From Propionibacteriaceae bacterium (lineage in GTDB: Bacteria; Actinomycetota; Actinomycetes; Propionibacteriales; Propionibacteriaceae): a stretch of DNA of 34,685 nt. This document shows positions 16,995 through 19,110 of the stretch, piece by piece. A program made the position numbers and the translations under genes. Numbering within the stretch: position 1 is the stretch's first letter; each line of letters begins with the position of its first letter. The notes under the pieces were generated by a model. That model did not search any database. It was not told where the DNA came from and saw only the letters and a program-made list of their open reading frames with translations. The stretch spans positions 1-34,685 of the forward strand of contig WRIC01000017.1 of assembly GCA_009782915.1 (NCBI GenBank). Direction: 5' to 3'.

Positions 16995-17024
16995 ATGCCA
17001 AGAAGCGATAGGTTGACAGTATGA
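16995..17024 (+). CDS. Candidate 9-codon leader peptide before the HD gene
   Basis: ATG 16995 has AGGAGA at 16981-16986 with 8-nt spacing and reads MPRSDRLTV, stop. Its TGA overlaps the ATG of the HD gene (ATGA at 17021-17024). The HD gene itself has only a weak ribosome site, so the leader could deliver ribosomes by termination-reinitiation. There is no other evidence that it is expressed. Confidence 0.35.
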   Translation: MPRSDRLTV

Positions 17025-17464
17025 ATGAGAGTTTAGTTGAGGTGGCGCGCCGGTTGGCAACTCAGGCGCATGGGGAGCAGAAGGATCGAGCTGGGAGACC
17101 GTACATTGATCACCCTCGTCGAGTGGCTGGGCGCTTGGAGGATCAAGGGGAGACCGCTGAGGTGGTGGCTGCTGGTTGGTTGCATGATGTTCTTGAGGAC
17201 ACCCCCATCACAACAGAGGATTTTCGTGCGCTGGGAATACCTGAGGCAGTGATCGAGGCAGTTGAGTCGGTCACCAAGCGTCCTGACGAATCCAAACAGG
17301 ATTACGCTTTGCGTGTGAAGTCCTGCGAGATGGGTCTCAAGGTCAAACGAGCTGATCTTGCAGACAACATGGACCCGAATCGTCTCGCTCTGCTTGATGA
17401 ACCCACCAGGGAGAGGTTGACAGAGAAGTACGCCACCATGGTCTCTCTTCTCGATGCTCAATAA
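17021..17464 (+). CDS. Small HD-domain (p)ppGpp-hydrolase-like protein (MESH1/SAH type)
   Basis: 147 residues, essentially one HD domain like the hydrolase half of Rel/SpoT without a synthetase. The ligands line up with Rel-type hydrolases: His31, His55-Asp56, Glu59-Asp60 in GWLHDVLEDT, and Asp112 in KVKRADLADN (KxADxxxN). The 24-residue spacing between the first His and the HD pair is the same as in Rel enzymes. It would remove pyrophosphate from the 3' position of (p)ppGpp, or act on related nucleotides such as NADPH as MESH1 does. It follows the AAA_14 gene on the same strand and may form a two-gene cassette between two long hairpins. The assignment is strong for the fold and moderate for the substrate. 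Confidence 0.8.
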   Translation: MNESLVEVARRLATQAHGEQKDRAGRPYIDHPRRVAGRLEDQGETAEVVAAGWLHDVLEDTPITTEDFRALGIPEAVIEAVESVTKRPDESKQDYALRVKSCEMGLKVKRADLADNMDPNRLALLDEPTRERLTEKYATMVSLLDAQ

Positions 17465-17481
17465 CCGTGTAGAAGGCGTTC

Positions 17482-17522
17482 AGTGGCAACTTATTAGTCA
17501 TCATGACGAATAACTTGCCACT
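17482..17522. repeat. Long CAT-N-ATG hairpin (palindrome B)
   Basis: Arms of 20 bp (17482-17501 and 17503-17522) with two mismatches around a single C; the tip is GTCAT-C-ATGAC as in the repeats at 6322 and 7381. It lies 17 nt behind the HD gene stop. Confidence 0.8.
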
Positions 17523-17598
17523 AAACCCATGTTTGGGTGGTCGTTGTGGTGCTTGATTGAGCAGACCCCACCTGCGACACCATGTCGGTGGTCTGTGT

Positions 17599-17604
17599 TA
17601 AAGT
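17599..17604 (+). promoter_or_regulatory. -10 box TAAAGT in front of the riboswitch
   Basis: TAAAGT lies 6 nt before the first base of the P1 stem of the putative SAM-IV aptamer (17611), which is where a transcript would begin. The -35 is weak (GCGACA about 19 bp upstream). Confidence 0.5.
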
Positions 17605-17610
17605 GTTCAT

Positions 17611-17751
17611 AGGTTCAGAGACACGACCGTGAACCCTCAGGAGTAGGTCGTTCGGCAACCGGCCCCGCGCTGGTGCCTTCCTGGGAAAACCTGGCCACGA
17701 GTAATCGCTACGTGGTCACGCGGGATCCGGTCAGGGTCCCTGACCGAAAGG
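17611..17751 (+). promoter_or_regulatory. SAM-IV-type (SAM clan) riboswitch with expression platform
   Basis: Elements in the order and spacing of the SAM-I/SAM-IV clan: P1 AGGTT (17611-17615) with AACCT (17688-17692); P2 ACGACC (17623-17628) with GGTCGT (17646-17651); P3 opening GGCAACC (17654-17660) and closing GGTGCC (17672-17677). The P2 loop CAGGA (17638-17642) can pair with TCCTG (17679-17683), the clan's pseudoknot. GAGTA...CTAC (17699-17711) resembles the extra SAM-IV stem. Then a perfect 8-bp hairpin GGTCAGGG-T-CCCTGACC (17729-17745) sits directly before the ribosome site AAAGG (17747-17751), 8 nt from ATG 17760, which suggests translational control. SAM-IV is known mainly from actinobacteria. 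Assigned by eye, not by covariance model. Confidence 0.75.
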
Positions 17752-17759
17752 CGCAAGCC

Positions 17760-19049
17760 ATGAAATTGCTGTATCCAGCAAACCTTAACCCCCACCTCCA
17801 CCCCAATCAGAATGAATTCGACATCATTCGCAAGCATTTTGACTGGGGCAGGGCAATGTTCCAAACAATGTGGCACACCCAAGAACGTGAATCTGACTCC
17901 TATTTACTCCACTATTTGAAAAAGCAGGGTTTGCCTGTCAACAAGAAAACACTAGCCACGCTTCGGGAGTATCTGGGGATTCGTGCCCCTAGTGTCGTAC
18001 CACGACGCAGAGCAAGTATCGTACGGATTGAACCGAACAAAACGGATCACAACACAGCCGGGATTGATGTTCGATCCTCGTACTCCCCAGTGATCATCAA
18101 TGTTCCCCATGCGGGCTTGGACTGGCCCAAGGATGGGATCGCCATGCCCAAGCGAGAAGACCTCGCTGAAGAGATCACGGTCATGGCAGATCTTTTCGTT
18201 GACCGCATCGCAAAAGCAGTGGTCCATGAAGCAGCTGACCGGTCCTTTACTAGCAACGAGAACGGTTCACAATCGCAGATTCCACAAGCAATGCGCTGGC
18301 CGACTCTGGTGATCAATCTGGTTTCCCGGTTGGCCATGGATCCGGAGCGTCTCGACGATGAGACTGAAGAAATGTCCGCAGTTGGGATGGGTGTGGTCTA
18401 CGAGCGTGACCACTTGGGTGGTGAACTCTATTCAACGCCACTAACTGAGGCACAGATCAAGCGCCGGAAACAGTTGTGGTATAAACCGTATGCAGCAGTG
18501 ATGGAGGATCAAGTTGAGTGGGCTTTGGAAAGGTATGACCGGTGTTTGATCATAGACCTCCATTCGTACAGCGTGGAACCTCTTGCCTGTGAACGGCACC
18601 CTGAGGCTCGAAGACCCGATATTTGCTTGGGGTACGAGGATTTCCATGATCCAGGAATCGATGAGGTGGAGCGCATCTTCAACAGCTACGGCTTTTCAAC
18701 GGCGAGAAATGAGCCGTACTCAGGGTCATATGTTCCCTTGGAGTTGTGGCGCAAAGACCCACGGGTGAAATCCATCATGGTGGAGATACGCAAAGACCAG
18801 TATCTCGATGGTTTGACACTGTTAAGTGAGCGTGTCACGCACCTGGCTACTGCTCTCTATGACGTCATGCGCCAGTGGCATTTGCTTCGAGAGTCCGGTG
18901 ACTGGGAAAACGAGTGTCATGACGATGATCGCTGGGGTGAGACTGTGGATTCTGGATTCTGCGACTTCGCGCAGAATGACGGGGTGGGGTGTGTGGGTTC
19001 GCTTGAGTTTGGGTGTGGATTCTGGATTCTGCGACTTCGCGCAGAATGA
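17760..19049 (+). CDS. N-formylglutamate amidohydrolase-family enzyme under SAM riboswitch
   Basis: 429 residues. The first 105 form an unrecognised charged/helical extension. The FGase-type (zinc carboxypeptidase-like) domain follows: IINVPHAG (about 112-119), the Arg/Glu-rich YERDHLGGELY, IDLHSYS (265-271), EPYSGSYVP (318-326) and SIMVEIRKDQYL (338-349). Known members cleave N-formylglutamate to formate and glutamate in histidine breakdown, but no hut genes are nearby. Control by a SAM riboswitch points instead to methionine or sulfur supply, for example release of methionine from N-formylmethionine (inference). ATG 17760 is chosen for its AAAGG site; an upstream GTG (17673) lies inside the aptamer. 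From about residue 395 the frame runs through repeat R2, so roughly the last 35 residues are repeat-encoded. Confidence 0.85.
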   Translation: MKLLYPANLNPHLHPNQNEFDIIRKHFDWGRAMFQTMWHTQERESDSYLLHYLKKQGLPVNKKTLATLREYLGIRAPSVVPRRRASIVRIEPNKTDHNTAGIDVRSSYSPVIINVPHAGLDWPKDGIAMPKREDLAEEITVMADLFVDRIAKAVVHEAADRSFTSNENGSQSQIPQAMRWPTLVINLVSRLAMDPERLDDETEEMSAVGMGVVYERDHLGGELYSTPLTEAQIKRRKQLWYKPYAAVMEDQVEWALERYDRCLIIDLHSYSVEPLACERHPEARRPDICLGYEDFHDPGIDEVERIFNSYGFSTARNEPYSGSYVPLELWRKDPRVKSIMVEIRKDQYLDGLTLLSERVTHLATALYDVMRQWHLLRESGDWENECHDDDRWGETVDSGFCDFAQNDGVGCVGSLEFGCGFWILRLRAE

Positions 19050-19110
19050 CGGGGGTGGGGTGTGCAGAATGACGGGGATGGGGTGTGCGGAGTGACGGGG
19101 GTGGGGTGTG
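18948..19110. repeat. Composite hairpin repeat R2 (half elements, tandem arms)
   Basis: Two copies of the hairpin TTCTGCGACTTCGCGCAGAA (about 18957-18976 and 19026-19045) are each followed by TGACGGGG. Then come 23-bp tandem units of the type GCAGAATGACGGGG+TGGGGTGT (about 19040-19110). The repeat covers the 3' end of the amidohydrolase gene and the whole gap up to the purD promoter. Confidence 0.85.

Follow-up and report, generated by a model that had tools for sequence, protein, structure and literature searches.

A SAM-IV-like leader in front of an FGase-family hydrolase gene in a Propionibacteriaceae bacterium suggests SAM-repressed salvage of methionine from N-acyl-methionine

The leader RNA and the gene behind it

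The window, that is the whole stretch of DNA analysed here, comprises 34,685 nucleotides of contig WRIC01000017.1 from the genome of a Propionibacteriaceae bacterium (G000), and all parts described below lie on its (+) strand. An HD_4-domain (SpoT-like) gene recognised by Pfam (17021..17464) stands just upstream of a leader RNA, which is followed by a gene of 429 codons (17760..19049) from the N-formylglutamate amidohydrolase (FGase) family. The leader contains a SAM-IV-like riboswitch aptamer at 17612..17728, with P1, a short P2, P3, P4 and two pseudoknots, which we recognise from a match to RF00634 and from covariation in nine leaders. In a permissive Rfam search of 17480-17800, RF00634 (SAM-IV) matched over its full length at 17612-17728 with 37.1 bits (E 3.1e-5), against a gathering cut-off of 38 bits; the second line of this search was a chance-level snoRNA (8.7 bits vs a cut-off of 41). 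At gathering level the whole window returned 0 matches, whereas relatives with the same leader score 54.7 and 50.5 bits. The first-pass annotation would have given up its proposal for want of both a SAM-clan hit above threshold and conserved stems: the match falls short of the curated threshold by 0.9 bit, but conservation of the stems is seen in the leaders compared.

By reading of the sequence, P1 pairs 17611-17615 with 17688-17692, P2 pairs 17623-17628 with 17646-17651 and P3 pairs 17659-17662 with 17670-17673, and P4 is present in the window leader as well. Pseudoknot 1 joins a strand of the P2 loop (17638..17642) to 17679-17683, and pseudoknot 2 joins a strand of the P3 loop (17665..17669) to 17719-17723. 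The order of P1, P2, P3 and P2-loop pseudoknot that had been noticed at first sight is confirmed by this reading. The window leader was aligned up to the start codon with eight others from its bacterial family, and the alignment was compared with a structure (P1, P2, P3, P4 and the two pseudoknots) that was written from the window sequence, itself one of the nine rows. Pairing holds in 94.4% of the cells, and compensatory changes on both sides occur in 12 of the 31 pairs; 0 of 500 shuffles reached the pairing percentage and 0 of 500 the compensatory count. Further pair types, one of five measures, were reached by 35 of the 500. When the partners were slid by 1-3 columns, pairing fell to 31-47%. 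Compensatory changes include C-G to U-A in P1, U-A to A-U in the P2-loop pseudoknot and U-A to G-C in the P3-loop pseudoknot. Pseudoknot 1 has such changes in two of its five pairs and also shows weak points (one pair unpaired in 6/9 rows, two pairs gapped in 5/9 rows), and pseudoknot 2 has one compensatory pair with 97.8% of cells paired. Taken alone, the window leader folds no better than its own shuffles (z -0.95). With our custom model R1, whose training rows include the window itself, it reaches 85.1 bits. We consider it very likely that the window leader belongs to the SAM clan, and the earlier claim of a SAM-IV-like riboswitch before this gene is borne out by the RF00634 score together with the compensatory changes.

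With SAM-IV (RF00634, Rfam clan CL00012) the leader shares the order of P1-P4, the GGCAACC and GGUGCC core, the full-length match, and both the P2-loop and the P3-loop/3' pseudoknots (77% and 98% of cells paired); stems and core letters were verified by alignment and pair counts. It departs from SAM-IV in its score, in its target, which is not metXY, and in P2, which is a single helix. According to a passage in PMC4239095, SAM-IV regulates metXY in Actinomycetales. Since 17629-17645, as read from the sequence, leaves no inner helix and the internal loop within P2 of RF00634 is absent, we file the leader as SAM-IV-like and not as a strict member. The part of PMC2864571 that treats SAM-I/IV variants names the missing P2 internal loop as their mark, and window-type leaders share this feature with the SAM-I/IV-variant RNAs (RF01725). 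Unlike these, the window leader has P4 and the 3' pseudoknot, and it is reported as SAM-IV by clan competition.

A -10 box ending 6 nt before P1 had been proposed. A weak -10-like hexamer, TAAAGT, does stand there (17599..17604) by reading of the sequence, but a consensus scan passed no promoter at the window leader. No terminator was found in this leader either. The Shine-Dalgarno sequence GAAAGG (17746..17751) lies 8 nt before the ATG at 17760, and two alternative hairpins precede it. Hairpin A (17722..17740, pairing 17722-17727 with 17735-17740) appears in the predicted fold of 17715-17770 and uses some of the bases of pseudoknot 2, while hairpin B (17728..17746, pairing 17728-17735 with 17739-17746) abuts the Shine-Dalgarno sequence and excludes hairpin A. 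The perfect 17-nt hairpin that the first-pass annotation had set on the ribosome site exists (17729-17745) but abuts the Shine-Dalgarno sequence and does not cover it. Four leaders with a similar platform could be compared (G000, G121, G142 and G016). For hairpin A, 95.8% of cells are paired with one compensatory pair, and 253 of 500 shuffles do as well; for hairpin B, 90.6% of cells are paired (8/500 shuffles) and one pair is compensatory (116/500). We infer SAM binding, the direction of switching and the mechanism of the window leader as follows. The leader would sense SAM and repress translation of an FGase-family hydrolase of N-formyl- (or N-acyl-) amino acids. When SAM is high, the aptamer would close and pseudoknot 2 would occupy bases required for hairpin A, after which hairpin B would form against the Shine-Dalgarno sequence and translation would fall. 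When SAM is low, hairpin A would form and break up hairpin B, and the enzyme would be made.

The coding sequence starts, by reading, at ATG 17760 and not at GTG 17673 of the longest open reading frame. Its product matches PF05013 with 142.6 bits (curated cut-off 28.9) and keeps the family motifs PHAGLDWP, DPER, DLHSYS and EIRKD in alignments, in which the letters after HSY/HSF vary by lineage (HSYR, HSYS, HSYP, HSFP). Solved relatives of the family profile are 2q7s, named N-formylglutamate amidohydrolase, and 2odf, a hypothetical protein. PF05013 membership and these relatives make the protein resemble HutG, the N-formylglutamate deformylase. In contrast to HutG, it scores 33.5 bits with the TIGR02017 model against an equivalog cut-off of 278.75, its genome has no detected urocanase and its leader is of the SAM type. 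A plain HutG is out, with the HutG cut-off missed by far and no urocanase found. Indeed, urocanase (PF01175) was not found in G000, G121, G115, G142 or G166, so the non-histidine setting suspected from the window alone holds in all five. About 108 residues precede the Pfam domain (105 in the first-pass annotation), but this extension is absent from the nearest orthologue, and no homology was found between it and the small ORFs that separate FGase from SAM-IV in G166 and G142. A dispersed genomic repeat makes up the 3' end of the coding sequence (18933..19049, from about residue 392), and 11 further sites in the window's genome match the C-terminus of the protein, starting at residue 375 or 392. 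The repeat bears a palindrome and has units at 18955-18981 and 19025-19051; having run into the FGase gene, it is read there as the last codons.

SAM-IV and FGase genes in related actinobacteria

With an E limit of 0.01, RF00634 matched in 25 of 147 genomes of the family, in 23 of them over the cut-off. An FGase relative occurs in four of the 147 (G000, G121, G115 and G142) and is preceded by SAM-IV in all of these except G115. In G121, from the same genus, SAM-IV (54.7 bits) lies directly before an orthologue with 54% protein identity. The aptamer thus recurs before an orthologue, as the first-pass annotation had led one to expect, and separately other FGase-family genes are SAM-IV-led too. 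The arrangement in G142 is SAM-IV (50.5 bits), a 137-aa ORF, an N-terminal fragment of FGase and then an HD-domain gene. No SAM-IV was found at the FGase of G115; this FGase is part of a 949-aa frame and is preceded in it by a segment without a Pfam match that, judged by eye, looks membrane-bound. Within the window's genus, an FGase gene is present in only 3 of 19 genomes. The HD domain after the G142 fragment (L048:8069-8503) is 45% identical to that of the window's HD_4 gene; with HD beside SAM-IV/FGase in both places, the two may travel together. Next to the SAM-IV-FGase unit stand gene pairs that we take to be AbiEi/AbiEii-like and VapC-like (L046:1814-3460 in G121, L048:5485-6488 in G142), and these neighbours suggest a mobile or defence-island setting. 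A phage origin was not supported (two phage records only, 22-26% identity; none found in viral contigs), nor was a plasmid origin: among the matches listed, Rhodococcus plasmid relatives reach 33-37%, and the four scanned had no SAM-IV.

At the level of the order, the FGase profile matched in 7 of 293 genomes. One of them, G166 from another family, has SAM-IV (64.9 bits), a 101-aa ORF and, overlapping it, an FGase gene with an in-frame stop; no SAM-IV was found at the FGase genes of G230, G257 and G270, which belong to the same order outside the family. At class level, FGase matches occurred in 40 of 394 genomes, and 38 of the 40 (without G448 and G648) were tested for SAM-IV. SAM-IV leads the FGase transcription unit in ten of the 38, namely G000, G166 and eight genomes of the Nanopelagicaceae-like family (f29). 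The other 28 gave no SAM-IV in the stretch scanned, which in 25 of them covered only ~1.5 kb upstream, so that a SAM-IV several genes ahead would go unseen there.

Among 151 f29 genomes, a census identified FGase in 30. Contig ends truncate five of these loci (G725, G738, G743, G750, G793), and our counts rest on the other 25. In 18 of the 25, SAM-IV is followed by genes for a solute-binding protein, a permease and an ATPase, with FGase last; in one (G717), SAM-IV lies directly before FGase without a transporter. In the remaining six, all of genus g152, the transporter is not preceded by SAM-IV; instead, a SAM-IV directly follows FGase, and metY comes next in five of them, while in G790 the contig stops there. 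The operon of L103 encodes Pfam SBP_bac_3, BPD_transp_1 and ABC_tran domains, i.e. an amino-acid ABC transporter; the transporter genes of the other f29 loci were recognised by tblastn with those of L103, and the PDB relatives of this transporter are general amino-acid binders. The leading SAM-IV scores 42.5-103.6 bits with Rfam itself in the first eight f29 genomes and 82-106 bits with model R1, whose training set includes seven of those eight, in the added ones. SAM-controlled operons for methionine uptake and salvage are a known kind. The f29 operons resemble them in that a riboswitch of the SAM type precedes an amino-acid ABC importer, and differ in their last gene, the FGase-family hydrolase.

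From a profile scan of named genome contigs, 80 of 530 relatives were taken, 55 of Streptomyces type and 25 others, the latter overlapping the f29 set and not additive to it. Among the matches listed, these 25 loci comprise 14 with SAM-IV before transporter and FGase, one with SAM-IV directly before FGase, two with SAM-IV only after FGase, three (L119, L120, L128) with transporter and FGase but no SAM-IV found, and five that are cut upstream. None of the 55 Streptomyces-type loci among the matches listed had SAM-IV in the upstream stretch scanned, of up to 6 kb (2.2 kb in L127). As SAM-IV was not found in these stretches, nor at the four Rhodococcus plasmid loci scanned or at the FGase genes of G115, G230, G257 and G270, the link does not extend to the FGase family as a whole. 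Six of the 55, again among the matches listed, have metY-metX upstream of FGase (L132, L138, L145, L161, L165, L185), and in L132, L165 and L185 metX ends 25-86 nt before it. A large ORF forming one cluster lies upstream in 46 of the 55 listed loci and, judging by the sequences of L129 and L132, is presumably a monomeric isocitrate dehydrogenase.

In a tree of 93 FGase sequences the SAM-linked genes fall, as we read it, on three branches, formed by the window's genus, by G166 among its order relatives and by a Nanopelagicaceae-like clade. Support for the forks around G166 is weak and the branches of G000, G115 and G166 are long, which makes their placement unsure. The count given by the tree program sets the SAM group against two 'near' rows only and is no test of three origins. 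The three branches may reflect either repeated recruitment or an old link that was often lost.

Several other SAM-IV-like leaders came up alongside these loci. Short-P2 leaders directly precede a gene for a protein of ~280 aa in five genomes of the same family (L018, L020, L022, L023 and L024 in G046, G055, G124, G095 and G084); a DUF3293 domain (30.7 bits) was recognised in the L018 protein, the one scanned, which the remaining four resemble by eye. Such DUF3293-type genes are possibly methionine-linked as well. At L014:1501-1943 and L016:1501-1945, SAM-IV (72.6 and 68.5 bits) lies directly before look-alike proteins of ~105 aa without a Pfam match. In L019 (G016), a SAM-IV-like leader with a window-like platform is followed by a CRISPR-like array ~60 nt past the putative start, and the target gene seems to be missing. 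We dropped the idea of a link between SAM-IV and CRISPR there: as read from the orientation of its repeats, the array has the riboswitch at its distal end, and the two look merely adjacent.

Probable methionine salvage and alternative explanations

The metabolic setting differs between these genomes. Of nine genomes, MetE-type PF01717 was found in one (G166, partial), MetH-type PF02965 in all but G000, G121 and G115, and PF01053 (Cys_Met_Meta_PP; MetB/C/Y type) above cut-off in all but G000. With no MetE, MetH or PF01053 enzyme detected, G000 looks like a methionine auxotroph, and we regard this as likely, although the genome is 93.5% complete and absences may be gaps. It carries one SAM-IV only, in front of the FGase gene. 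Urocanase, besides being absent from the five genomes named above, was not found in G527, G587 and G635; it was found in 5 of 13 genomes tested, all five among the eight Nanopelagicaceae-like ones.

We think it probable that the SAM-IV-like riboswitch represses an FGase-family hydrolase which salvages methionine from N-formyl- or other N-acyl-methionine. Acting on N-formyl-methionine or a related N-acyl-methionine, the enzyme would set free formate and methionine, and the methionine would serve a cell that seems unable to make its own. Judged from the sequence comparisons, SAM control of the FGase gene is well supported. These FGase branches are likely to be linked to methionine in function; the SAM-IV-led transporter operons, the metY-metX neighbours and the likely auxotrophy fit methionine salvage. 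For the substrate, N-formyl-methionine would be the best single guess. The proposal of a SAM-repressed formylmethionine salvage, with which the first-pass annotation began, holds in part: the SAM-clan leader, the non-histidine setting and the methionine-linked context speak for it, and as a whole it is partly supported. We count against our explanation the score below the Rfam cut-off, the single-helix P2, the FGase loci at which no SAM-IV was found before the gene or its transporter, and the presence of the gene in only 3 of 19 genomes of the genus. It also counts against it that the FGase of G142 is only a fragment and that of G166 has an in-frame stop, and that G121 and G115 also lack MetE/MetH domains and the FGase of G115 has no SAM-IV.

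The enzyme might instead salvage, under SAM control, another N-acylated sulfur amino acid, such as N-acetyl-methionine, N-formyl-cysteine, methionine sulfoxide derivatives or formyl peptides. The family annotation names a fold and not a substrate, HutG is excluded by its curated cut-off, and the letters behind HSY/HSF differ between lineages, all of which agrees with a different substrate. However, of the solved relatives 2q7s bears the name of an N-formylglutamate amidohydrolase and 2odf is a hypothetical protein, no other acyl group in particular is indicated by the data, and we consider this reading unlikely.

Rather unlikely, too, is a role in one-carbon supply, in which N-formyl-glutamate or another N-formyl compound would be hydrolysed and the formate would supply the formyl- and methyl-folate from which methionine is remade. 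Control by SAM would be sensible here as well, as methyl groups are wanted, and the nearness to metYX, a MetH domain in all four Nanopelagicaceae-like genomes tested (G527, G587, G615, G635) and urocanase in 5/8 Nanopelagicaceae-like genomes agree with it. Yet in G000, whose only SAM-IV heads the FGase gene, the absence of a MetE or MetH domain and of a sulfhydrylase-type enzyme above cut-off closes the way from methyl-folate to methionine by known routes, and an importer in the operon suits a methionine-bearing substrate better. That the aptamer is a relic or changed, with a mobile cargo gene landed behind SAM-IV and a coupling in the window that means little, would agree with the patchy occurrence (3/19 in the genus), the presumed TA/Abi-type neighbours in G121 and G142, the broken FGase copies in G142 and G166 and the repeat that invaded the 3' end of the window gene, but is improbable given a leader that is conserved to the start codon, with covariation, before proteins only 54% identical, and SAM-IV-led FGases on three tree branches.

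Implications for methionine metabolism

Returning to methionine salvage as the preferred explanation, Nanopelagicaceae-like bacteria would run the same pathway with an amino-acid ABC importer of their own under SAM-IV control. In its fullest form, the data would describe a new methionine-salvage pathway in which N-formyl-methionine is imported and deformylated under SAM repression by means of SAM-IV, an SBP_bac_3-type importer and an FGase hydrolase. It would be present in about a fifth of the f29 genomes sampled, reduced to riboswitch and enzyme in G000, and SAM-IV would have been recruited three separate times. We put this forward tentatively, as possible rather than probable. In the open-access literature searched, we found no paper that joins FGase or an N-formyl hydrolase with a SAM riboswitch and none on an N-formylmethionine deformylase; the one riboswitch paper that came up for Nanopelagic bacteria concerns vitamin B1, to judge from its title. 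The novelty of the proposal is bounded by that search.

The result probably ties these FGase branches to the methionine economy and not to histidine breakdown. It also shows the short-P2 SAM-IV-like leader at the head of genes beyond metXY, including the DUF3293-domain family. If the proposed function is true, the annotation 'N-formylglutamate amidohydrolase' would be wrong for many actinobacterial genes, and bacteria would import N-formyl-methionine as a nutrient and recycle it under the control of SAM.
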